From contig DXIJ01000114.1 in the NCBI GenBank assembly GCA_019112945.1, positions 1 through 39,440 on the forward strand: 39,440 nt of DNA. The letters run 5' to 3'. Made by a program: the position numbers and the translations under genes. A model generated the notes under the pieces. It ran no database searches, was not told the DNA's origin, and saw nothing but the letters and a program-made list of their open reading frames with translations. This stretch comes from Candidatus Monoglobus merdigallinarum (GTDB lineage: Bacteria > Bacillota > Clostridia > Monoglobales > Monoglobaceae). Below are positions 5,973-29,165 of the stretch, one piece after another; positions within the stretch are counted from its first letter, which is position 1; each line of letters opens with the position of its first letter.

Positions 5973-7337
5973 CTATTTATCTTTCTTTCTGTTTATCGTC
6001 CACTGCTCCTTGACCACCTGCTTTGAACGCGCAATAGCCAGAGATTCAGCCGGAACCTCGTCGGTTATCGTCGAGCCCGCCGCCGTATATGCGCCGTGAC
6101 GCACAACGACCGGAGACACCAGGTTGGTGTTGCAGCCGATAAAGCAGTCGTCCTCTATCGTGGTGCGGTGCTTATGCTCTCCGTCATAGTTCACAACGAC
6201 CGTGCCGCAGCCGAAGTTGACGCGCTTGCCGACGTCCGCATCGCCTATGTACGTCAGATGCGCGACCTTGGTATCGTCGTCTATGGTCGAGTTCTTTATC
6301 TCAACAAAGTCGCCTATCTTTACAGACGAACCGACCTTTGAGCCGGGTCTTATATACGCAAAAGGCCCGACGTTTGTATTTGCGCCAATCTCGCTGTCTA
6401 TCGCTACCGACTTTAATATATGCGTATTGTCGCCGACCTTGCAGTTGTTGAGCGAGGTATCAGAGCCTATAACACAGTTCTCGCCTATAACGGTATCGCC
6501 CTCGAGGATAGTTCCGGGATACAGCACCGTGTCTCTGCCGACCTTTACATTAGTCGTAACATGGATCTTATCGGGGTCTATCACGGTAACACCGCCGAGC
6601 ATGAGTTCCTCTACCTTGCGGCGGTTCAGTATCTTGCCGACCTGAGCCAGCTGCAGCTTATCGTTTACGCCCAGGATCTGCTCAAAATCCGTCACAAACG
6701 CTCCGACGCTCTCGCCGTCTGACAGCATGATCTCTATAACATCGGTTATATAATACTCGCCCTGCGCGTTGTCGTTGTTAAGCCGTCCGAGAGCGCTGCG
6801 CAGCTTTTCTATATCAAAGAAATACATTCCGGAATTGACCTCGTTTATCTGCTTCTCGGCGTCGGTTGCATCTTTCTGCTCAACGATCCTGGCTATCTTG
6901 CCGTCCTCCCTGACAATTCTGCCGTATCCGTAGGGATCGTCAACATGGGCTGTTATCACGGTAGCGGCGCGGCCGTTTTCATCGTGCTCCGCCTTGACCT
7001 TTTTCAGCGTTTCCGCCTCGATAAGCGGCGAGTCGCCGTACAGCACCATAACCGTACCCTGCGCTCCGCCCAGCTGCTCCATGCCCTGCATGACCGCATG
7101 GCCCGTGCCGAGCTGCTGCAGCTGATAGGCATACTTAACGCTGCCGCCCAGATACGCCTTTATGTCCTCGGCCTTATGCCCGATAACAACGATATTTTCA
7201 TCGCTGCCCGCCTCTTTAGCAGTATCCGCGACCCATTCGACAAGAGCCTTGCCTGCTGCCTGCTGAAGCGGCTTTGCAATACTTGACTTCATTCGCTTTC
7301 CCTCTCCGGCAGCGAGAATAATACTGTACAAACTCAT
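5973..7337 (-). CDS. glmU: Bifunctional N-acetylglucosamine-1-phosphate uridyltransferase / glucosamine-1-phosphate acetyltransferase
   Basis: 454 aa; N-terminal ILAAGEGKRMKSS nucleotidyltransferase and C-terminal left-handed beta-helix hexapeptides. Confidence 0.97.
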   Translation of the reverse strand: MSLYSIILAAGEGKRMKSSIAKPLQQAAGKALVEWVADTAKEAGSDENIVVIGHKAEDIKAYLGGSVKYAYQLQQLGTGHAVMQGMEQLGGAQGTVMVLYGDSPLIEAETLKKVKAEHDENGRAATVITAHVDDPYGYGRIVREDGKIARIVEQKDATDAEKQINEVNSGMYFFDIEKLRSALGRLNNDNAQGEYYITDVIEIMLSDGESVGAFVTDFEQILGVNDKLQLAQVGKILNRRKVEELMLGGVTVIDPDKIHVTTNVKVGRDTVLYPGTILEGDTVIGENCVIGSDTSLNNCKVGDNTHILKSVAIDSEIGANTNVGPFAYIRPGSKVGSSVKIGDFVEIKNSTIDDDTKVAHLTYIGDADVGKRVNFGCGTVVVNYDGEHKHRTTIEDDCFIGCNTNLVSPVVVRHGAYTAAGSTITDEVPAESLAIARSKQVVKEQWTINRKKDK

Positions 7338-7582
7338 TTTTATTCCTCCAAAATTTAAATATCATAGTATTAAATTATAACACACCGGCAGGCTTTTTTC
7401 AATACCACTATTTTATACTAATATTATAGTTTTTTCGAATATTAATTATACAATTTAACTTAAATCGCTAACTTTTAAAAATACGGCGGGCAGTGCGTAT
7501 ACAGCGTGATTATTATTTAAAATTTTAAAACCCATGTATTTTTTAACAGGTTTTGGGCAAGACTTAAAACCGAGGTGATAAA

Positions 7583-8473
7583 ATGAGTAACAAAAATGAA
7601 AAAAACAAGCCCGATAGGGAAAACCGCGAAAACTACGACCGCAGACCCATAGTTGACCCGCCGACCTCCGGCAGCGGCGATGACAAATCACACATTTCCT
7701 CAAAGAGAAAAGGATTTTACATAATCCTTTTGCTTGGGATTACTGCTATAGGAATGTATGCCGTTTTAAGCTCTGTTATGTCAGACAGGACTGCCAATGT
7801 TCAGGATGAGGTCAGAACAGCCTCGTACTATGCCACGCCGAGACCCGCAAGCGTTCCGGTCACCGCTGCGGTAACGCCGGTGCCGGACGAGCCCGAGAGC
7901 ACTCCCGCGCCGCAGACAAATGCTCCGGTTCCTACCGCCGCCCCGGCGGCCGAGCCCGGCCAGGCTCCGGTGAGCGGAAAAATAATCAAGGATTTTTCGC
8001 TTGATGACCTGATATACTCCGCTACAATGGACGACTGGCGCACCCACAGCGGCGTCGATATCGCAGCAAGCCTTGACACGCCCGTCACCGCGGTAAAGGA
8101 CGGCACCTTAAAAAAGGTCTATGAAGACAGTCTGCTTGGAACGACCGTTATAATCCACCACCCGAGCGACGGAACCGACAGCGTATACTGCAACCTGAAA
8201 GACGTAACGAACGATCCCATCGGCACAGAGCTAAAGACAGGCGACATGATAGGCCGCATTGGCAGCACCGCTGTGTCGGAGCTCAGCGATGAGCCGCATC
8301 TGCACTTTGAGATAAGGCTTGACGATGAGAGCCTTGACCCAAAGGAATTTGTAAAGTTTGAAGACGCCGAATACCTCAGCCCGTCCGAAGCCGCCGTGCC
8401 GTCCGCCGCACCGTCCGCCTCCTCCGACCCGTACACTGACGAAAACGGCGTTGAGACCATGATAATCGATTAG
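7583..8473 (+). CDS. Membrane-anchored M23-family (LytM-like) peptidase
   Basis: 296 aa; N-terminal TM, Pro-rich linker, HSGVDIAASLDTPVTAVKDGTL and HLHFEIRLDDESLDP motifs. Confidence 0.9.
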   Translation: MSNKNEKNKPDRENRENYDRRPIVDPPTSGSGDDKSHISSKRKGFYIILLLGITAIGMYAVLSSVMSDRTANVQDEVRTASYYATPRPASVPVTAAVTPVPDEPESTPAPQTNAPVPTAAPAAEPGQAPVSGKIIKDFSLDDLIYSATMDDWRTHSGVDIAASLDTPVTAVKDGTLKKVYEDSLLGTTVIIHHPSDGTDSVYCNLKDVTNDPIGTELKTGDMIGRIGSTAVSELSDEPHLHFEIRLDDESLDPKEFVKFEDAEYLSPSEAAVPSAAPSASSDPYTDENGVETMIID

Positions 8474-12692: not shown

Positions 12693-13601
12693 TCAGTTAT
12701 TTTCAATTATGCTTGCTCCGATATTGTCGGGGCTTAAAATGTGAAGTTTCCAATCTTTCATTTTATCCAAAAGCACACGGCTTATACTGCACCCGAAAGC
12801 CCGGTTGTCCGCTTCGATTATCGCTATGATAGTAGGCCCCGCACCGCTGAGGTATACGCCCAGGGCTCCGTTGTCATAGCACAGCCTGAACAGACTGTCC
12901 ATATTAGGTATCAGCCGCCGCCTGTAGTTCTGGTGCAGCTTGTCGCCGACCGCCGTTCTGATGTTCTCATACTTGCCGGATATAAGGCTTGCTGTGAGCA
13001 GCGCGCTGTGCCCGGTGTTATACACCGCGTCTCCGTGTGGAACCGATTTCGGCAGCACCCCCCGCGACTTTTTTGTCTGAAGATAAAAATCCGGTACAAG
13101 CGCCGCAAAACGCAGCGCCTTGTCATCAAGCTCGGTCTTTACATACCGTATAGCGTTTTTTGTCATAACATTGACAGTAAAACCGCCGAGCAGCGCCGGG
13201 GTAACATTGTCGGGGTGACCCTCTATATCAGCGGCAAGTTTTAAAAGCTCATCCATCGAAAGTTCGTCTCCGCACAGCCTGTTTGCCGCAACTATCCCTC
13301 CGACTATCCCTGCGCTGCTGCTGCCCAGCCCGCGCGTGACCATGATGTTGTTTTTAAGGGTCAGTTTCAGACCCCGGGGCTTATACCCGGTAATATCGAA
13401 AACACGCTTCATTGACCTGTATACCAGGTTGTTCTCGTTTTCGGGCAGGAAACTTTTGGAACTGTCGGTTATTTTTATTGTGAGGCCGGCGCCGCCGGTC
13501 TCCTCAGCTGTTACATAGTTATAGAGCCCCAAGGCTATACCCATGCTGTCAAAACCCGGACCTATGTTTGCCGACGTTGCCGGAACTCTGACTTTGACCA
13601 T
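12693..13601 (-). CDS. thrB: Homoserine kinase (GHMP family)
   Basis: 302 aa; VRVPATSANIGPGFDSMGIAL, VTRGLGSSSAGIVGG, YLSGAGPTIIAI. Confidence 0.96.
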   Translation of the reverse strand: MVKVRVPATSANIGPGFDSMGIALGLYNYVTAEETGGAGLTIKITDSSKSFLPENENNLVYRSMKRVFDITGYKPRGLKLTLKNNIMVTRGLGSSSAGIVGGIVAANRLCGDELSMDELLKLAADIEGHPDNVTPALLGGFTVNVMTKNAIRYVKTELDDKALRFAALVPDFYLQTKKSRGVLPKSVPHGDAVYNTGHSALLTASLISGKYENIRTAVGDKLHQNYRRRLIPNMDSLFRLCYDNGALGVYLSGAGPTIIAIIEADNRAFGCSISRVLLDKMKDWKLHILSPDNIGASIIENN

Positions 13602-13603
13602 GT

Positions 13604-14821
13604 TTATTCAGCCACCAATCTAATCTTATTTAAAAGCTCGTACTTCGCAAGCGGACCGTCTAAAAGCGCTTCAAAATCATACTCCGTCATACTGGGAGAT
13701 ACCACTGCGAACTCGTCCGCATACTCGGCGCCGTCCAGGGTTATAACGTCAAAGCCGTCTCCCGAGAACGGCTCTTCGCCGTTCCTTTTAAACCTTGCGT
13801 AAAATCTGCCGGGCAGGGTCTTGGAATCGAGAAGATACCCATCCTCTCCCTCGCTCCAGCCCAGACGTATATGTTTCTGCTTATGCTTTACGGTATCGAT
13901 TATATCCGACAGCACTGCGCTTGCCGTCGGCAGCGCACCTGCTCCGCGTCCGTAGAACATGACGTCTCCCAGACCCTCGCCGCGCACCATGATACCGTTA
14001 AAGACATCGTCAATGCCGGCAAGCGGGTGCGACGACTTCAGGATAGCCGGGCAAACCATGGCATACACACCGTTTTCGGCTCTGGAAGTCATACCGAGAA
14101 GCTTTATCACAGAATCGAATTTAGCGGCATACGCCACGTCTTCCAGTGTAATGCCCGATATTCCCTCGCATGGGATCTCGTCGCTGTTTACATACTTTCC
14201 GAACGCCAAAGACGCCAATATTGCCGTCTTTCGGCAGGTGTCAAAGCCCTCAACGTCCGCAGTCGGATCCTTTTCGGCATAGCCGTTTTCCTGAGCGCCC
14301 TTTAGCGCCTCCTCAAACGAGGCGCCGTTCTTTATCATCTGGGTCAGGATATAGTTGGTTGTACCGTTCAGTATGCCGTAAATATCGGTAAGTTCATTCG
14401 CCGCAAGGCTCGTATAAAGAGGCCTGATAATCGGTATTCCTCCGCCGACGCTGGCCTCAAACAGATAGTTTACATTGTTCTCCTCGGCAAGCCTGAGCAG
14501 CTCGGTGCCGTGCTTTGCCACAAGCTCCTTGTTTGAGGTAACCACGCTCTTGCCCGCCTGAAGCAGTCTTTTGGTAAAGTCGTACGCCGGGTTGGTACCG
14601 CCCATGACTTCCGCCACGACCCCTATCTCGGGGTCATTTAAAATATCCTCAAAGTCCTTGGTGAAGCACTTGTAAATGCTGTCCGGAAAATCCCGCAGAT
14701 CAAGAATTTTTGCAACAGTTATCTCTTCGCCGCTGCGGCGTTTTATCGATTCGGCATTCGTTGCTATCAGCTCGCCTACGCCGCCGCCGACAACGCCGAA
14801 GCCCATTATTCCTATTTTCAT
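13604..14821 (-). CDS. hom: Homoserine dehydrogenase with C-terminal ACT-like domain
   Basis: 405 aa; GIMGFGVVGGGVGELI, VVTSNKELVAKHG, GILNGTTNYILTQM, DVEGFDTCRKTAILASLAFG. Confidence 0.97.
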   Translation of the reverse strand: MKIGIMGFGVVGGGVGELIATNAESIKRRSGEEITVAKILDLRDFPDSIYKCFTKDFEDILNDPEIGVVAEVMGGTNPAYDFTKRLLQAGKSVVTSNKELVAKHGTELLRLAEENNVNYLFEASVGGGIPIIRPLYTSLAANELTDIYGILNGTTNYILTQMIKNGASFEEALKGAQENGYAEKDPTADVEGFDTCRKTAILASLAFGKYVNSDEIPCEGISGITLEDVAYAAKFDSVIKLLGMTSRAENGVYAMVCPAILKSSHPLAGIDDVFNGIMVRGEGLGDVMFYGRGAGALPTASAVLSDIIDTVKHKQKHIRLGWSEGEDGYLLDSKTLPGRFYARFKRNGEEPFSGDGFDVITLDGAEYADEFAVVSPSMTEYDFEALLDGPLAKYELLNKIRLVAE

Positions 14822-19480: not shown

Positions 19481-22400
19481 TCACTGCATCGGAACTGTCG
19501 GTGCATTATCATTTGGCAGAACTATTTCCGCCGTATCTGCTGCATGGTTACCATCGGGCAGAGTCTGGCTCTCACCCTTTGGCTCCTGCGTAAGAGTAAA
19601 CGCAAATACCAGCGATTTGGCCGCTTTTGCACGTGTTACCTCAGCTTTCGGCTCAAGTTCATTGCCGAGCGCTATAGAGCCTCTTGCTATACCCTGCTCG
19701 CTTCTGACAAGGCCAAGGTTATATGCCTCTTTGACCTTTGCATAGAGTGATGAATTAAGCTCGTCTGTGTCAGAAAGCGCGCCCCAGCCTACAAGCGGGA
19801 TATACGGCGAACCCTCGTACTGAATGTTCGGGTCATAGTTCGGGTCGTCAGGAGACGGAACAGCTCCGTTTTGATTCATGTACTCAACTTTATTCCAGCT
19901 GCCGTCCTCATTCTTGCCGTACGCTGCAAGGTATGCATCATAAAGTATGGCGCCCATAGCTTCACGCGTAAGCGCTGCGTCGCTTGGGATATACGCATCT
20001 ATTACCTCAGGCTCCTTGTCAAATACAGCCGATACTACCGTATCACTCGTGACTATGATAGAATACTCGCGCGCAGAAGAAGCATTATATCCTCCAACCA
20101 CGATAGAATTGAACAGATATCCGCTGTCTGCACTTGCTACTATCCTGACCGTATCGCCGGAGTTTACCATGAGCCGGGTATCGCTCTGCGGATACTCGCC
20201 CTCATACATTACTCCGTATATCTGGCCTGTACCGCCTCTTGCCCAGAGCTGATAGCTGTTTCCTGCCTCAACATTAAAGTGTACAACACCTGTCAGCCAA
20301 GACCCATTGCCCGCTGCGGGCTCATCGTTCATGTATTTAGACTGCAGCACATTACCATTGCTGTCGGCCAGCTGTATATTCTTATGATCCTGGAAGTAAC
20401 AATAAACCGTTATGGTTCCGCTTGCCTTTGCATCATACTTTACGATCTTTTCCGGATTAGAATTACGGAACTCTATTCCGTCCTTGGTAATCGCCGGGTT
20501 ATCCGGGAACACAGCATCGTCACGTGATTTTTCCACAACTTCAGACGGCGCCGTCAGAGTAAAGTATTCATTGTCGGAAATCACCTGGTTTGCCGTGATT
20601 CCTTTGGTTATATTGGCCGTATAAGCCGTGCGCTGCGTCTCATTATATACCATGACGCTTCCGCCCTCGGGCTGCTGAACCGTAACAGTGATATCACCGG
20701 ACGCCGGTTCTGCACCGCCTGTAAGTGATGCAGTCTGCGCAGCTGCCTCATCAGATGACTGAAGTGCTGCTGCGCCCTCTGACTGAAGCTCTGCATATGT
20801 CTTGGTGTAGTTTGTCAGAGTATTTTCATCAAGACCGAACGCTTTTTCCGCGCCTCTTGCAAACTCACCGACCGTTACAGTCTCATTCGGCATAAAGAGA
20901 TTATTGTCATTCTTGTGGAGCAGACCAAGCTGCAGAGCCTTTTCTATATTATTTCTGTAATAGAATGAGCTCTCCGACTGCTGCGAAGCGCCGGGAACAA
21001 CTCCGACTGCGCTGACGTCGCTCGCCATCTCCGGGAAAACCTTTGACCAATCGCCTGTTGACGCCGCCTCAACAACACTATCCGGCATGTAGGATACGAG
21101 TTCCTGCATTATATCCTTATCGGTATATGTATCATTTGAAGCCACAGACTGGTCGTATATGCTCTGAAGCATTATACGGCACCACTGCTTTGCGGCTGCC
21201 TCGCGGTAATGCGTTCCGTCGCTGTTTGCACCGTTTGCCGCATTCTCTGCCGGGGTCTCTCCTGCTTCAACCGAATTGTATATATAAAGTATCTCCCTTT
21301 TGTTGCTGAAGCTGTCTATATAATCCTTTGCGCCCTCGTACAGCTCAATAAGCCCTACCTCAGGATCGGACGCAGCCTTTGCACGCATATTTGCCGGAGA
21401 GTCCGGATTAAAGCCGTTTGGCTTGTTTGAGTTCTCGCTGTAATTACCCGAACCCGTTCTCGGCATTGCGGTAACCAGCACCGGGGTCATGCCTCTTGCC
21501 TTGATAGCCGTCACATACATATCGAGCCATCTGTTATAGCTTGCGTTGTTCTTAGAAAGATTATCCTTTTCTACCGAAGAACCTCTGGAAAAACGGTCAA
21601 GGCTTATCGTCTCGTCATTGTGGGCCGAATGAATAAACACATAGTCGCCCTCTTTGCCCGAGACGAGGATCTCGCCGAAGCGGCCCTCGTTATAATTGCT
21701 CTTCATAGCACGGCCGCCCATTGAGTAGTTGACGACATTGACCTTTTCGGGGTCAAAGTAGTTGACAAGCGTCTGTCCCCAGGAGCTTATCGTTTCGTTA
21801 AATGTATACGTCTTTTGAGTAGAGTCTCCCAAAATGTGGATAGTCGGCTTGTCGCCTGCCTGATTGTTGGCAAGCGGCGTCACCCTTATGCTCTTTACGC
21901 CGACAGTCTTAGGGTCACTGCTTGAGGGCAGCGAGCTCGGCTCTATCTCTATCTCGATAAAGTCCTCGCCGGTTGCAAAATCATATGTCCATACGCTGCC
22001 GTTCCACTTTGCACTTACTGTGCGCGGCACATTGCCGGCATTATCCCAGGTTGACGTACCCGTCAGCCTGCCTGCATCCATGCCCGTCGGAGCAACTCTG
22101 GTGTCGGCGCTTGAGCCTGTGACCTCTACCTCCAGGCGGTAAGCGCCCGGTGCGCCTGTATCGATACGGTAGATCATTCCGCCGTAGTTATAATCGTCTG
22201 AATCAAAACCGTTTGTTGCAGCATTTTTAGCAGTGTAGTGAAGGTAAGCCGCATCAGTCTCTGTAACCGACGCTCCGTCTGCGGACAAAGCTATGCGGTC
22301 AGGTGATGCAACCTGTCTTTCCCAGCCCTCAGCTCTGATCGCACCTGACTTCTCGACAAAGCCCTGACCTGCTGATGTGCTGTACACCGGCACGCTCTGC

Positions 22401-25400
22401 ATGGCGGTGAAGTCAACGTAGATTTCATCGCCCGAGGGAGGAGCAGACGGGGGTGTTGTCGGATCGGACGGGGTTTCGCCCGTCACATCAAATGCCTCAC
22501 AGAGCGGCTCCATGCTGCTGAGTGAATCCCAGACAAATACTTTGTCGGCCTCTATGCCCTCCAAAACGACTTGGTCTCCTGTGACGTCTGCCGTCTTCAT
22601 ATCCTCGAGCGCTCCGCCGGCGTTGTACTTAGCGCCGATAACCACGCCGCTCTCTATGTTTTCAAGCGTAACGTATGTATTTCCGTTCTCTGCATATGCC
22701 TCCGAAATCACAGCCTCGCCTGACGGCGGAGTTACCGGCGTCGGAGTAGGAGTCGGTGTATCTCCTCCGCTCTCTCTGATTATCTCCTTATATGTAATGC
22801 TTATATCCTTTATTGTAAACATATTGTCTCCGTCATTTCCGGGGAATACGCTTATATAAATATTGTTCTTATCCGGAGTTTGCGCAAACTCGTCAAATGC
22901 GTCATATGTATTCCACTCGCTTGCCGAATCACCTTTCATAGCTCCGATTATTTTTGAATTTTTAAAATCCAAAGTTACTCTTACGTTCTGTACGGGAGTG
23001 TCGCTAAAGTTTGAGCCTGTGCCGTTGAGCCACTGGTTCTCGTTATTTGATGAACCGCTTGTTGCGCCTGCGCCCGCGTCAAACATATTGAGCTGATCCC
23101 AGCGTCCCGCATTTATCTTTGCGTAACGCTCATCATATGCCGATGTTGAGAAGCCGGCCATCTGTCCGTTTGTGATCTCAACTGCCGCTCCGTTGTTGCT
23201 GCCCCGATAATCCTCGCTCATGTCAAGCGTAAACTCGATCGTTACCGCATCCGTATCAGATATATCGGGTATCAGATCTGAAACTTTCCAATATGCGCCG
23301 CCGCTGCCGTTTCCTGTGACCGTAAAGCTGCCGTCTCCGTTGTCCGTAACACTCGCGCCTGAACCGAATGTGGTCGGAGCCGCTGTGATGTCATATGTAA
23401 CATCTCTGAGGCGCACTACCTGCGCGTCAATCGTCCGGGACTCGCCTTTGCCGCCCGATACGGTAGTCCTGCCTTCCTCGGGAGACGCAATTGTAAAGTA
23501 AGAATCGGGAGAATCAAATACAACGTCATAATCGCCTACCGGGATCATGTCTGCTGTATATCTTGCCTCGGTCTCGCCTGCACGTATTGTTGCTGTCGTC
23601 TGCTTTATGAGCGCTGCACCCTTGTAGATATTTATATTAATATCCGCATCTCTTTCCGGAGCCGCACCCACGACCGAAACAGTTCCCTGCGCTGTGAATA
23701 CGTTCTCAGTATCCTGTGAGGGCTCGATCTTAAAGTCAATGCTCTTCTTATTGCCTATCTCTTTGTTTGCAGACTCTCTGACATAAAGTGCAACGCTTGC
23801 GTCTATTGCCTGCTCGCCGTTTGCCGGGCGGATAAGCGTAAGCTGCGTTCCGTCATCGCTGACAGTCGCATACTCGCTGTTGCTCTCCCATTTGAACTCG
23901 TATCCGCTTGGCGCGGACGGGAGCGCAACTACGTTTGTAGTACCATCGCTTGTATCGATAGTCGTGCTTTCAAGCACGCCGTTAACACCTGCGTATGTAT
24001 CCGTAAGGTTCATAGGATCCCACTCGCTCTTGCCCTGGCTGAGCCAGAAGTCACTGTTAAAATAGTTTACAGGGTTAAATTCAAGTATCTGCCACTCGTC
24101 AAGCACACTTCCCATGCCGGCGCCGCCGTTTTCAACGCTCTCGTTTACTACACGCCCCGAGAGGTCTGCCGGCTCTCCGCTTGAGTTATGTGTACCATAC
24201 TCATAAAAACGCGCGAGATTTGCCATGTTGTCGGACATATCTCTCCAGCCAAGCGCGCCGATTCCTGCCGCACTTGCACCTATCTCTGCCGTATCATCGA
24301 TCTCGGTATTGTAGAACGTAATCTGCGCATCCTGCCGCCACGGTCTGCCGTATAATGAATCTGTTATATTATCAAGCAAATTATATACCGTACAGTTGTA
24401 GAACAGATATCCGTACGGGTTGTTTGGATCATGGTTAGCCGCTGTGATGGTTGCACCGTAATCTCTGTTAGTCATACCCTCTGCGCCGAGCAGACAGTTG
24501 TCAAACACAACTGTTGCATCGCCGTATATATAGTCGGTGCCGCCGATCAGGTTACAGTCTTTGAAATACTGTCTGCCGCTGCCGACCCATACGCTGTCCT
24601 GATTTCCTCTTGCTCTTATACCCTCGAGGATTATCCTGTCGCCGTCTATTGCTATGGCATGGCCGCGCTCGTTGTACTTATCAGAGCGCACAAGGTATGC
24701 GCTCTCTTCGGGCGTCAGGTCTGTGAGAGCTTCAAGAGCCTTGACCTTTTCCACTTCATTCTCGATCGCAAGTGCTTTTACAACACGGTCTGTTCCCTGA
24801 GGGATAGTATCCTCGCTGCATATTGCGAGATTATCGCGCCTTGGGAGCACATCTTTTGTCGCATTGTCTGCGTTTCTATCCTCCTGCGGAGCAACGCCGA
24901 AAGTCTTTTCACCCTCGGTTACCATAACAGGTATAGCGTTTACTATATTGAAATTCTTTACGGTGATATCACTGCAATTTCTGTCTATGACAAGCGCCGC
25001 CTGGTCGTTAAAATCGCCGAGGTGAGCCTTTTGAACGGGCACGTCCCTATGCGCCACGCCGTCCGTGTCATAGTACGAGATGGTCTCTACGCCCGTGAGA
25101 ACCTGACCGAGACGGTATGCCGTGAACTGCTCATCGCCGGGATTATAACCCGTCCATGTGCGCGGATCGCTCCAGTTGACCTTTGGGTCATAGTTTCCGT
25201 CAAGGCCTGTGTTGCCTGCGCAGTAACTCGTGCAGTAGTACCAGTAAAGGTTTACTGTACCTTCTGTTCCCGGAGTCTGCTGCAGCGTGATATACTTCAT
25301 GCTCTGCAGCTTGACCTGCTCTTCATAATTGCCGGGGTCCACATTTATCGTGACCCTGTACTCTTCGCTCTGCGGATTTATTTCAGCCGCAGCTGCAACG

Positions 25401-25564
25401 GCTTCGCTTATCGTCCGGTAATCGCCGCTTGCGCCTACAGTTATGGTCGTCGCCGACGCCAGCTCCGGTGCGTCGCCGGGCTCTGCATACGTAAACACAG
25501 CGGGAGTAAGCATTGTAACGAACACCGTTATTGCCGAAACCAATGCCAAAATCCTTTTTCGCAT
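19481..25564 (-). CDS. Secreted multidomain pectinase: pectin methylesterase (CE8-like) + rhamnogalacturonan acetylesterase-like SGNH (CE12-like) + SLH segments
   Basis: 2027 aa; signal peptide; PME region GNYEEQV, GNQDSVWVGSGRQYFKDCNLIGGTDYIYGDA, LYGRPWRQDAQITFYNTEI; SGNH region ILGDSTQKTYTFNETISSWGQTL, NYSMGGRAMKS, FIHSAHNDET, SDGTHYREAAAKQW; SLH-like segments near aa 1500-1600 and at the C-terminus. Confidence 0.93.
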   Translation of the reverse strand: MRKRILALVSAITVFVTMLTPAVFTYAEPGDAPELASATTITVGASGDYRTISEAVAAAAEINPQSEEYRVTINVDPGNYEEQVKLQSMKYITLQQTPGTEGTVNLYWYYCTSYCAGNTGLDGNYDPKVNWSDPRTWTGYNPGDEQFTAYRLGQVLTGVETISYYDTDGVAHRDVPVQKAHLGDFNDQAALVIDRNCSDITVKNFNIVNAIPVMVTEGEKTFGVAPQEDRNADNATKDVLPRRDNLAICSEDTIPQGTDRVVKALAIENEVEKVKALEALTDLTPEESAYLVRSDKYNERGHAIAIDGDRIILEGIRARGNQDSVWVGSGRQYFKDCNLIGGTDYIYGDATVVFDNCLLGAEGMTNRDYGATITAANHDPNNPYGYLFYNCTVYNLLDNITDSLYGRPWRQDAQITFYNTEIDDTAEIGASAAGIGALGWRDMSDNMANLARFYEYGTHNSSGEPADLSGRVVNESVENGGAGMGSVLDEWQILEFNPVNYFNSDFWLSQGKSEWDPMNLTDTYAGVNGVLESTTIDTSDGTTNVVALPSAPSGYEFKWESNSEYATVSDDGTQLTLIRPANGEQAIDASVALYVRESANKEIGNKKSIDFKIEPSQDTENVFTAQGTVSVVGAAPERDADININIYKGAALIKQTTATIRAGETEARYTADMIPVGDYDVVFDSPDSYFTIASPEEGRTTVSGGKGESRTIDAQVVRLRDVTYDITAAPTTFGSGASVTDNGDGSFTVTGNGSGGAYWKVSDLIPDISDTDAVTIEFTLDMSEDYRGSNNGAAVEITNGQMAGFSTSAYDERYAKINAGRWDQLNMFDAGAGATSGSSNNENQWLNGTGSNFSDTPVQNVRVTLDFKNSKIIGAMKGDSASEWNTYDAFDEFAQTPDKNNIYISVFPGNDGDNMFTIKDISITYKEIIRESGGDTPTPTPTPVTPPSGEAVISEAYAENGNTYVTLENIESGVVIGAKYNAGGALEDMKTADVTGDQVVLEGIEADKVFVWDSLSSMEPLCEAFDVTGETPSDPTTPPSAPPSGDEIYVDFTAMQSVPVYSTSAGQGFVEKSGAIRAEGWERQVASPDRIALSADGASVTETDAAYLHYTAKNAATNGFDSDDYNYGGMIYRIDTGAPGAYRLEVEVTGSSADTRVAPTGMDAGRLTGTSTWDNAGNVPRTVSAKWNGSVWTYDFATGEDFIEIEIEPSSLPSSSDPKTVGVKSIRVTPLANNQAGDKPTIHILGDSTQKTYTFNETISSWGQTLVNYFDPEKVNVVNYSMGGRAMKSNYNEGRFGEILVSGKEGDYVFIHSAHNDETISLDRFSRGSSVEKDNLSKNNASYNRWLDMYVTAIKARGMTPVLVTAMPRTGSGNYSENSNKPNGFNPDSPANMRAKAASDPEVGLIELYEGAKDYIDSFSNKREILYIYNSVEAGETPAENAANGANSDGTHYREAAAKQWCRIMLQSIYDQSVASNDTYTDKDIMQELVSYMPDSVVEAASTGDWSKVFPEMASDVSAVGVVPGASQQSESSFYYRNNIEKALQLGLLHKNDNNLFMPNETVTVGEFARGAEKAFGLDENTLTNYTKTYAELQSEGAAALQSSDEAAAQTASLTGGAEPASGDITVTVQQPEGGSVMVYNETQRTAYTANITKGITANQVISDNEYFTLTAPSEVVEKSRDDAVFPDNPAITKDGIEFRNSNPEKIVKYDAKASGTITVYCYFQDHKNIQLADSNGNVLQSKYMNDEPAAGNGSWLTGVVHFNVEAGNSYQLWARGGTGQIYGVMYEGEYPQSDTRLMVNSGDTVRIVASADSGYLFNSIVVGGYNASSAREYSIIVTSDTVVSAVFDKEPEVIDAYIPSDAALTREAMGAILYDAYLAAYGKNEDGSWNKVEYMNQNGAVPSPDDPNYDPNIQYEGSPYIPLVGWGALSDTDELNSSLYAKVKEAYNLGLVRSEQGIARGSIALGNELEPKAEVTRAKAAKSLVFAFTLTQEPKGESQTLPDGNHAADTAEIVLPNDNAPTVPMQ

Positions 25565-25614: not shown

Positions 25615-25643
25615 ATTATACGTCAAAATCACTAAATTTAATA
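25615..25643 (-). promoter_or_regulatory. Candidate pectinase promoter with good -10 and poor -35
   Basis: Minus strand TATAAT at 25620-25615; the -35 at 17-nt spacing reads TATTAA. Confidence 0.45.
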
Positions 25644-25644
25644 G

Positions 25645-25675
25645 TGCCAATCCACTTAAAAACTACCATGCCAAT
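25645..25675. promoter_or_regulatory. Direct repeat TGCCAAT-N17-TGCCAAT between divergent promoters (candidate MocR operator)
   Basis: TGCCAAT at 25645-25651 and 25669-25675, 24 bp apart start to start. Confidence 0.45.
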
Positions 25676-25680
25676 TTCTA

Positions 25681-25709
25681 TTGAAAATATCTCCGGTATG
25701 TGCTATACT
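25681..25709 (+). promoter_or_regulatory. Candidate promoter of the MocR regulator gene
   Basis: TTGAAA (25681-25686), 17-nt spacer, TATACT (25704-25709) with TG extended -10. Confidence 0.65.
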
Positions 25710-25739: not shown

Positions 25740-27104
25740 TTGAAACTTGACAGAGGCTCGGAAACACCGATATACATACAGATATACAATTTCATCGCAG
25801 GAGAGATAACGAACGGCTACCGCGCACCCGGCGAGGCGCTGCCCACAAGGCGCGCGCTGTGCAGGGAGCTCGGCGTATCTCCTGCAACGGTCGAAAACGC
25901 TTACGGCAAGCTGATATCAGACGGATATATAATCTCACGCCCCGGCAGCGGATACTATGTTACTATGGACAGAGCCGCCCCGCCTGAAGCGAAGCCTGCA
26001 AGCGGCAATATTTACAACTTCAGCAGCAACGGCGTTGAGATATCAAAGCTGCCGTTTGCCAAATGGTCGAAGCTTATGATAAGCACGATACGCGAGAACA
26101 CCGACCTCTTTCAGCACGGCGAAAAGTACGGCGAATACTGCCTCAGAAACAGCATCCGCCGTCTGCTGTACCGCACGCAGGGGATACGCTTCAGCCCCGA
26201 GCAGGTGATAATCGGCCCCGGCACGGACGACCTTATGCGGGATCTGTTCTTGCTGACCGGCGGCAGATATCCGCTGCTTATGAACAACTACTACAACTAC
26301 AGGGTGAAGAACGTTGCCGATGAGCTGGGTCTTGGTATTGAGTATATTGAGAACTGTGACTGCGGAATAGAGATTTCAGAGCTTGAAAGGTACAAGACCG
26401 GTCTGCTTTATCAAAAACCCACACACGATCTGCCGACCGGCTCTACACTCTCAAGCGAGCGGCGCGGGGAGCTTATAAAATGGCTCGGAGGCAACAGATA
26501 TATCCTTGAGGATCTGAGCGAAAACGACTTTTGCTATGTAAAGCGAAAAAAAACTTTGTGGGAGCTGTCGGGAGGCGAAAACGTTATACTCATAGGCGGC
26601 TTCTCGACCACTATTGCGCCGTCAATGAAGATCGGCTATATCATACTGCCGGAACCGCTTATTAAGCTGTGGACTGACGGAAAACGCTTCTACTCAAACA
26701 GAGTGTCGCGCATTGAGCAGGTAACCTTGTCCAGGTTTATAGACCTTGGGTACTACGAACAGCATGTAGGGTATATGAGAAGCATATACCGCGAGAAGAT
26801 GAACACGGTAAAGGGCGCAGTCGCGGAGACCCCTCTCGCGCGGTGCACAAGGCTGAGCGGCTGTGACGAAGGGCTGTTCTGTCTGGCGCAGTTTGATATA
26901 AGCCTCAGCGAAAACGAGAGCTATCAGCTTCTGATGAAAAACGGCGTAAAAGCGAGTACGCTCTCGTCCTGCATAAAAAATGCGGCGCTGTCACGCTATC
27001 CGCTGAACACATATATCATAGGATTTGGGGAACTGAAAATCTCTCAGATACAGGACGGTATAAGGAAGTGGGCACGGGCGTGGAGGCCATATATTACAAC
27101 GTAG
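25740..27104 (+). CDS. MocR/GntR-type transcriptional regulator (wHTH + aminotransferase-like domain)
   Basis: MKLDRGSETPIYIQIYNFIAGEITNGYRAPGEALPTRRALCRELGVSPATVENAYGKLISDGYIISRPGSGYYV, then fold type I aminotransferase-like domain. TTG start at 25740 with AAAGGAG fits better than the track start at 25644, which would span the -35/-10 elements. Confidence 0.92.
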   Translation: MKLDRGSETPIYIQIYNFIAGEITNGYRAPGEALPTRRALCRELGVSPATVENAYGKLISDGYIISRPGSGYYVTMDRAAPPEAKPASGNIYNFSSNGVEISKLPFAKWSKLMISTIRENTDLFQHGEKYGEYCLRNSIRRLLYRTQGIRFSPEQVIIGPGTDDLMRDLFLLTGGRYPLLMNNYYNYRVKNVADELGLGIEYIENCDCGIEISELERYKTGLLYQKPTHDLPTGSTLSSERRGELIKWLGGNRYILEDLSENDFCYVKRKKTLWELSGGENVILIGGFSTTIAPSMKIGYIILPEPLIKLWTDGKRFYSNRVSRIEQVTLSRFIDLGYYEQHVGYMRSIYREKMNTVKGAVAETPLARCTRLSGCDEGLFCLAQFDISLSENESYQLLMKNGVKASTLSSCIKNAALSRYPLNTYIIGFGELKISQIQDGIRKWARAWRPYITT

Positions 27105-27157
27105 GAACGTAGGAACGTAGGAACGTAGGGATTAGGGATTAGGAATTAGGAATTAGG
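27100..27157. repeat. Adjacent 8-bp and 7-bp microsatellites
   Basis: (AACGTAGG)x4 followed directly by four 7-bp GGATTAG/GAATTAG units; the first 8-mer contains the TAG stop of the MocR gene. Confidence 0.88.
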
Positions 27158-27930
27158 CTGACAGAGGTTATCGAACCAAACAAAAGTCCCGGCGCAGCGG
27201 ACTTTTGTTTGAAAGGAAAAGCAGCGCAGCGAGTGAGCTTTTCGTGCTTTGCACGGAAACGAACAAGCGCAGCTTGCTTTGACGCAGGTGCGTAGGCGAG
27301 GGAGTGTCGCATAGAATATGTTAAGTTGCTTATACTATCAGCCCGTTTCCGGGGCTGCGCACCTCCGCGCTCACTACGTTCGCCTGCCGAAGTTTGCACT
27401 AACCAAAATTGTTATTTGGTTGGATAACTCAGTTAAATATTGAGTTTATCCTAAATTTTATGATAGCACATGACGCTTTGCGCAAAGCGTTAAACCATAA
27501 TTTCAGCCGAGAATTAATCCGTCACATTCATAATCGCTAATCCCTACGTTGCTACCGAAGTTTGCAGTAAAAAATATTATTTGGTTAGATAACTTAGCAA
27601 ATTTGAGTTTATCCCAAAGGTTTTCGGATAAGTGCAAGCGTCGGTAGGTGAGCCTTTAGGCGAACACTTTAGGTGCGCAGGCGAGGAAGAGGCAAAAAAA
27701 GAAAGATTGTATAATCCGTTTAGTTGTAAATCTGTGCGCGACTGCGCACCTCCGCGCTCACTACGTTCGCCTGCCGAAGTTTGCATAACGCTTTGCGCAA
27801 AGCGTTATATGCTATGCCAACGTTCAGGATAAACTCAATATTTGACTGAGAATAAACCCGTCTCCGCCCTAATTCCTGCGTCGAAGCAAGCTCCGCTTAT
27901 TCGTTTCCGCGCAACGGTGTTAGTACAAAC
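27158..27930. repeat. Intergenic repeat block C (compound modular hairpin repeats)
   Basis: 27181-27285 is an inverted copy of 11093-11197; near-identical GCGCACCTCCGCGCTCACTACGTTCGCCTGCCGAAGTTTGCA at 27357-27398 and 27744-27785; partial module at 27878-27914. Confidence 0.85.
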
Positions 27931-28005: not shown

Positions 28006-29040
28006 TTAATTCTCCAACTCACTTGAAAGCCCGCCGCCCGAGGAGGAGCCGCTGCCCGAGGAGCCGCTGCCCGAGGAGCCGCTGCCCGAGGAGCTGCTTC
28101 CTGAGCTGCTGCTTGAAGAGCTGCCCGATGAGCTGCTGCCGGAGGACGAACTCTCTGAGCCGCTGCCCGACGAACTCTCGGAACGGTTTGAACTGCCCGA
28201 GCTTCCGCTCTGCGAGCTGCCTGATGAGCTGCTGCCGGAACCGCCGCCTGATGAACTGCTGCCTGAGCTGTTTGAATCCCCGGAACTGCTTGACGAGCTG
28301 CCGCTTCCCGAGCTGCCGCCCGATGAACTCTCAGAACGGCTTGAACCGCTGCCGGAGCTGCTGCCCGAGCTTCCGCTCTGCGAGCTGCCGCCCGATGAGC
28401 TGCCTGAGGAGCTGCTGCCCGACGAACGGTCGCTTGAGGAGGAGTTGCCCGACGAACTGCTGCCCGATGAGCTGCCGCCCGTTGAGCCGCTGCTTGAGCT
28501 GCCGCCGCTGCGCGGTGCGCTTTCCGTCTCGGCTTCAGTTACGCTTGGCTCCGAATTGTTAAAATTGCCAATCCAGCCGGAAACGCTTATGCTGACCCAA
28601 TATATAATGAAGCCAAGCACAAAGCCCAGCGCGGCAAGCAATAATATCTTTGCTATTCTTTTTCCAATACCGCGTTTGCGCTTAGGCTGCGGCGGATACT
28701 GCGGGGCATACTGCGCAGAACGCTCCTTACGCCTCCGCTGTTTTTTCCCTGAGGCGTTCGGGTCATACCGGTAATACTGTTTTTTGGCGGCGCTGCTGCC
28801 GTGCGTGCGTTCGCCCCTTTCAAGCTCACGCAGCCTTGAGCTGTTCTCAAAGCCCGGAGTATTTGAGTTGACCGCCGGGAAAGCGACCGTCCTGTCGCCC
28901 AAATCTTCTCCGCGCCCATCGTCCGTGTTTTTTATGTATTCGGTTTCGGCCGCTGTTTTTTGCTGCACAAGCGCGCTTCCGCAATACTTACATATCTTGT
29001 CGCTGTCGCCGACCTGTTTACCGCAGAATTGACAAATCAT
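28006..29040 (-). CDS. Zinc-ribbon membrane protein with a long Ser/Gly low-complexity C-terminus
   Basis: MICQFCGKQVGDSDKICKYCGSAL (CxxC-CxxC), basic linker, one TM, then about 170 aa nearly all Ser/Gly. Probable start at 29040. Confidence 0.75.
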   Translation of the reverse strand: MICQFCGKQVGDSDKICKYCGSALVQQKTAAETEYIKNTDDGRGEDLGDRTVAFPAVNSNTPGFENSSRLRELERGERTHGSSAAKKQYYRYDPNASGKKQRRRKERSAQYAPQYPPQPKRKRGIGKRIAKILLLAALGFVLGFIIYWVSISVSGWIGNFNNSEPSVTEAETESAPRSGGSSSSGSTGGSSSGSSSSGNSSSSDRSSGSSSSGSSSGGSSQSGSSGSSSGSGSSRSESSSGGSSGSGSSSSSSGDSNSSGSSSSGGGSGSSSSGSSQSGSSGSSNRSESSSGSGSESSSSGSSSSGSSSSSSSGSSSSGSGSSGSGSSGSGSSSGGGLSSELEN

Positions 29041-29165
29041 TCCATAACCTCTTTCCATAATAATTACACTAATTATATCACGTTTTTCCGCATAGTCAAT
29101 ACAACGATTTCATAAATATCATACCCGTACGGGCGGGCTCTTTGATATATTTCAATAACCCCATT

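Follow-up and report, generated by a model that had tools for sequence, protein, structure and literature searches.

A MocR-type regulator naturally lacking the Schiff-base lysine and its predicted operator at a pectinesterase promoter in gut Clostridia

Introduction

The closest described systems to the regulator presented here are PdxR of B. clausii (7pq9/7zn5), the activator of pdxST, and GabR of B. subtilis (4n0b/5x03), a PLP- and GABA-dependent activator of gabTD. Both proteins activate their own targets, with MocR factors often found to bind spaced direct repeats and PdxR shown to activate from an intergenic site (PMC5320631). The Schiff-base lysine of this family, Lys312 in GabR, is described as conserved across all MocR clusters (PMC6677901), and replacement of the equivalent residue in EnuR (K302H) abolishes PLP retention and locks the protein as a constitutive repressor (PMC8739950), which suggests that a sensor relying on the conventional aldimine would fail without the lysine. 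In the openly readable literature, we found neither a description of a natural MocR factor without this lysine nor a link between MocR factors and pectin.

The regulator described here is encoded in a 39,440-nucleotide stretch of Candidatus Monoglobus merdigallinarum DNA (hereafter the window), from an assembly that is 74% complete in 144 contigs. It resembles PdxR in its winged helix-turn-helix (wHTH) and aminotransferase-like domain (about 28% identity), in fold, in its direct-repeat operator, in the adjacent position of its target and, probably, in activation, however it lacks equivalents of the Schiff-base lysine, Tyr281, Phe250 and Arg319, and its putative target is a pectinesterase rather than PLP synthesis. 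With GabR it shares architecture, fold and direct repeats upstream of the target promoter, but it cannot form an internal aldimine at the Lys312 position and has lost Arg430, the GABA carboxylate binder of GabR. Like EnuR K302H it is a MocR-type factor without the lysine; whilst the EnuR variant is a laboratory mutant locked as a repressor, the window protein occurs in nature, where its operator and target are conserved.

Results

The regulator gene and protein

Features of the locus are collected in Table 1. The most likely start of the regulator gene is the TTG at 25740, which AAAGGAG precedes, and this was preferred over the GTG at 25644 with which the mechanically called open reading frame begins. 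Both elements of MocR architecture are present in the encoded protein, with an N-terminal GntR-type winged HTH (PF00392, E 8.9e-12) followed by a fold type I aminotransferase-like domain detected by phmmer (E 1e-56 against PdxR 7pq9, 6e-44 against GabR) and by Foldseek to both proteins. The reading frame is intact, as the preliminary description of this DNA had stated, with 66% identity over its full length to the ortholog of G017 (Candidatus Roslinia caecavium). The aminotransferase domain of an AlphaFold2 model (pLDDT 90.8) superposes on GabR and PdxR at about 2.1 Å, with a TM score of about 0.9 (Foldseek, domain only), and the fold is predicted to be intact.

Table 1. Coordinates of the regulator, its putative target and the predicted control elements in the window
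Feature	Position	Strand	Details and basis
MocR-type regulator gene	25740..27104	+	454 aa, TTG start; GntR-type winged HTH + aminotransferase-like domain
Asp258, kept equivalent of GabR Asp279 (pyridine nitrogen)	26511..26513	+	D in 8/8 orthologs
Ser260, replacing GabR Tyr281 (ring stacking)	26517..26519	+	Alignment
Thr290 (ACC), at GabR Lys312 Schiff-base position	26607..26609	+	Alignment with GabR and PdxR
Lys297, replacing GabR Arg319 (PLP phosphate)	26628..26630	+	K in 7/8 orthologs, T in one
Divergent gene for 2027-aa secreted pectinesterase multidomain protein	19481..25564	-	PF01095 E 3.4e-27; putative target
-10-like TATAAT of pectinesterase promoter, 24 bp from proximal half-site; poor -35	25615..25620	-	Conserved pattern
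Predicted operator half-site ATTGGCA, proximal to pectinesterase promoter	25645..25651	-	Conserved pattern
Predicted operator half-site ATTGGCA, distal direct repeat, 24 bp from proximal	25669..25675	-	Conserved pattern
Promoter-like TTGAAA-17-TATACT of regulator gene, abutting distal half-site	25681..25709	+	Sequence reading, inference

Against the PdxR profile NF052282 the window protein scores 324.7 bits, barely over the curated cut-off of 320. NCBIfam naming would make it a PdxR, yet its neighbours are a pectinesterase and other non-B6 genes, with no pdxST or B6 salvage genes among the neighbours inspected, and the pdxS-adjacent MocR of the window genus belongs to a different clade. Directly 3' of the regulator stop (27104-27165) lies a short tandem run of GGAACGTA repeats and then GATTAGG/AATTAGG repeats, and a 350-aa protein with a zinc-ribbon-like CxxC start and a long Ser/Gly-rich low-complexity tail is encoded at 28006-29058 (-).

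Loss of the PLP site

Alignment with the chain sequences of GabR (4n0b) and B. clausii PdxR (7pq9) places Thr290 on GabR Lys312, the codons around the site reading GGC GGC TTC TCG ACC ACT ATT GCG CCG TCA ATG AAG ATC GGC TAT, exactly as in the preliminary description, which had read the lysine as replaced by threonine and had proposed this alignment and a structural model as checks. Its further statement that the flanking motifs are kept applies to part of the site. Among the GabR PLP-site contact residues listed in PMC6917764, only the equivalents of Asp279 and Arg207 are retained, with Tyr205, Phe250, Tyr281, Arg319 and Arg430 replaced by Asn, Leu, Ser, Lys and Ser respectively; the serine of the FS motif (Ser289) is kept. 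Across the eight orthologs, the Arg207 equivalent is present in seven, the Tyr281 position is Ser, Gly, Thr or Ala, the Phe250 position is Leu in all eight where sequenced, Asn occupies the Tyr205 position in five, and no ortholog sequenced at Arg430 retains it. With contacts replaced at several positions, the window protein has lost most of the PLP pocket and not one residue only. Outside the clade described below, 86 of 88 MocR proteins have Asp279 and 84 have Arg319.

A compensating lysine elsewhere was considered and rejected, with none found at the Schiff-base position of the lysine-less orthologs over the region aligned to GabR. Only four columns of this region are conserved as lysine in the lysine-less orthologs (GabR positions 121, 148, 374, and 424), and all four are also lysine in the lysine-bearing orthologs wherever sequenced, so that no substitute for the lost residue is seen.

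Orthologs and distribution of lysine loss

Hundreds of Clostridia genomes, mostly fragmented assemblies, were searched with profiles, giving eight orthologs at or above 520 bits, with the next protein at 318. Five of these lack the lysine, with Thr (ACC) in the window genome, Asn in G017 (AAT) and G461 (AAC), Arg in G015 (CGT), and Gly in G459 (GGC), and three carry Lys (AAA in G394, G124, and G450). The motifs MNNYYNY, YQKPTHDLPT, ENDY/F, and LWELSGG hardly vary among the three best orthologs and, judging from sequence, probably line the pocket.

Trees of 138 rows and, under a mixture model, of 55 rows were both built without the lysine column, and both recover the orthologs as one group (support 100/100 in the 55-row tree), which nests in a larger clade of window-genus paralogs and relatives (100/100, 55-row tree). 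Of the 40 remaining clade members, 37 have lost Asp279, 38 Lys312, and 38 Arg319. The lysine is missing from every one of the 46 MocR proteins detected across the 12 window-genus genomes sampled (R, Y, H, T, L, or F). Sampling was skewed to close relatives, apart from a phylum-wide sample drawn with the PdxR profile, in which the lysine is kept in 61 of 69 proteins (the 69 including one from the window genome), indicating that lysine is the rule and the window lineage the exception. Parsimony on the 138-row tree requires at least nine changes between Lys and non-Lys, in either direction.

Several further groups were observed in these comparisons. Other Clostridia MocR groups (L142, L143, L019, L131, L134, L137) have Thr or Ser at the lysine position in an otherwise near-canonical site with Asp279 and Tyr281 kept, suggesting that a similar substitution arose independently. 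The clade members L060 and L176 possess a lysine, with Asp279 changed to Asn and Tyr281 to Glu, and the lysine is possibly a reversion. A subgroup with His at this position shows an in-frame TGA within the match in three genomes: L172 (G007:C4), L282 (G003:C15), and L283 (G010:C11). The MocR divergent from pdxS in the window genus and a related genus (L270:13913-15283 and 12925-13869; L278:5355-6731 and 6835-8317; pdxS identified by sequence) has Arg at the Schiff-base position with Asp279 and Arg319 kept, falls in an 11-row clade (support 100) of which all members have Arg, and is likely the true PdxR of these genera. A regulator of PLP synthesis without the PLP lysine merits separate study.

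Neighbouring genes

Six ortholog loci have readable surroundings, with those of G015 and G450 cut by contig ends such that no target is visible. The divergent arrangement of the window recurs in G017 with a 2227-aa pectinesterase ortholog, and in G124 and G394 a pectinesterase lies immediately downstream of the regulator. In G459 the regulator shares an operon with a gene for a secreted protein and with genes of the GH88/105 type and GH43, and in G461 its divergent neighbour encodes a secreted protein of 615 aa to which no Pfam domain could be assigned with confidence. A pectinesterase is therefore divergent from or next downstream of the regulator at four of six readable loci. Pectinesterase domains are few in the seven genomes tested, at 2 to 11 per genome, so that this frequency is not attributable to chance.

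Regulators of the wider clade likewise adjoin genes for giant secreted proteins of the GH95 and/or pectinesterase type, in G000:C68, G008 (several), G017:C24, G002, G295, G015, G394, G124, G459, G001, and G006, with spaced TGG repeats similar to the window operator near several of these sister regulators. In contrast, a clade subgroup with Asp279 changed to Tyr has mostly unrelated neighbours. The GH95-associated paralogs resemble the window protein in their replaced lysine (mostly by Arg), decayed PLP site, spaced direct repeats, and adjacent giant secreted enzymes for plant polysaccharides, but differ in their half-site (TGGTA/TGGNCC, compared with TTGGCA in the window) and in the frequent loss of Asp279.

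Operator and promoters

Reading toward the target, all six loci share the same geometry with exact spacing: NNYGGN(A/C), 17 bp, NNYGGNA, 24 bp, and TATAAT or TAAAAT, giving spaced direct repeats with a 24-bp period near the target promoter, as in other MocR operators. This pattern occurs in none of 30,000 randomised sequences (5000 first-order randomisations per locus); it was chosen on the six loci themselves, and the only out-of-sample evidence comes from 11 genomes scanned with a somewhat stricter version, the reversed pattern serving as control. The scan returned 15 matches, compared with none for the reversed pattern. Six of these are the training sites, two are new and lie upstream of second pectinesterase genes in G459 and G124, fulfilling an out-of-sample prediction, and one in G461 is ahead of secreted proteins. 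The other six have the variant half-site TGGTA, four of them beside same-clade paralogous MocR genes divergent from GH95-type enzymes and the remaining two in G013, the genome of L060 and L176, where they precede GH95-type genes that have no MocR gene nearby. The sole match in the window genome is at 25615-25673 (-).

The proximal half-site occupies about -43 to -37 of the pectinesterase promoter and the -35 hexamers are poor, an arrangement that fits activation. The regulator's own promoter abuts the distal half-site, making autoregulation plausible. The operator is common to lysine-bearing (G394, G124) and lysine-less (window, G017, G459, G461) orthologs, as for the most part is the target, suggesting that the conserved function probably does not rely on the lysine.

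Discussion

We propose, with a probability of roughly 70%, that the window protein is an activator of pectin-degradation genes that has abandoned the PLP-lysine aldimine and acts from a direct-repeat operator at the pectinesterase promoter. The substitution, the loss of other PLP contacts, the conservation of the protein and its target, and the operator geometry were each computed, and from these we infer how the dimer is arranged, that it activates and does not repress, and that the remodelled pocket takes a ligand derived from pectin, the last of these being suggested by gene context. The aminotransferase-like domain, no longer able to form the aldimine, would sit in a head-to-tail dimer on the two direct half-sites NNYGGNM, 24 bp apart, with the nearer one just upstream of the pectinesterase -35 region. 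The pectinesterase gene would be activated when pectin breakdown products are present, and the regulator's own promoter would possibly be damped.

The signal sensed by the regulator is probably not a B6-bound amine. The preliminary description had suggested that the protein may respond to something different from a PLP aldimine, offering a sugar-derived ligand as one example, and this fits the conserved link to pectinesterases. The substitution does not stand alone, however, and belongs to an ortholog group within a clade of decayed sites. Its alternative of ligand independence appears less likely, given how strongly the probable pocket-lining motifs are conserved.

The main rival to a pectin-derived ligand is non-covalent binding of PLP or PMP, two ligands also named in the preliminary description, through Asp258, Ser289, and Lys297. 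Pectinase genes would then be controlled by a regulator that reports on B6 or amines. Conservation of the Asp279 equivalent in all eight orthologs and of Arg207 in seven, together with the retained FS serine, is consistent with such binding, as are the three orthologs with lysine, the score slightly over the cut-off of the PdxR-type profile, and the Arg found in place of lysine in the pdxS-adjacent relatives. Yet none of the eight orthologs, where sequenced, has Tyr281, Phe250, Arg319, or Arg430, EnuR without its lysine does not retain PLP (PMC8739950), and no B6 genes were seen in the ortholog neighbourhoods, and we consider this reading unlikely. Similarly doubtful, and slightly more so, is a sensor domain that serves as a dimerisation scaffold only, in a factor that is ligand-free or controlled through its own expression. 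The Schiff-base position varies freely (T/N/R/G/K), as would that of a site without a role, but the near-invariance of the four motifs in the three best orthologs exceeds the needs of a scaffold.

Two further explanations carry very little weight. Fold type I active sites are located at the dimer interface, and with several MocR paralogs per genome a lysine-bearing partner might provide PLP at a shared active site of a heterodimer; no such partner is present among the 46 MocR proteins found in the 12 sampled genomes of the genus, the two others of G000 among them, and this arrangement was rejected as highly improbable. Still more remote is the notion that Thr290 reflects a sequencing error, a recent mutation, or a decaying gene. 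The fragmented source assembly and the three orthologs that still carry lysine, close orthologs of this kind having been named in the preliminary description as grounds for suspecting error or recent mutation, might appear to favour it. The differing non-Lys residues and codons in four other genomes nevertheless rule out an error or one-off mutation, and the intact frame, the full-length similarity to the G017 ortholog, and the conserved operator and target likewise speak against decay.

More broadly, and tentatively, gut Clostridia may harbour an entire MocR clade that has dropped PLP-based chemistry, reads plant cell-wall sugars directly in the former aminotransferase pocket, and controls giant secreted pectinases, with even the lysine gone from the window member; we regard this as somewhat less probable than not. 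What is new here is the predicted link, in target and operator, between a lysine-less MocR and pectinesterase genes.

Reviews and annotation pipelines treat MocR factors as PLP-dependent. A lysine-less clade tied to pectin degradation by synteny and operator suggests that this fold can sense without cofactor chemistry, and supplies a candidate regulator for the giant pectinases of gut bacteria. Furthermore, the lysine-bearing and lysine-less orthologs with the same operator and target constitute a natural experiment on the role of the lysine.
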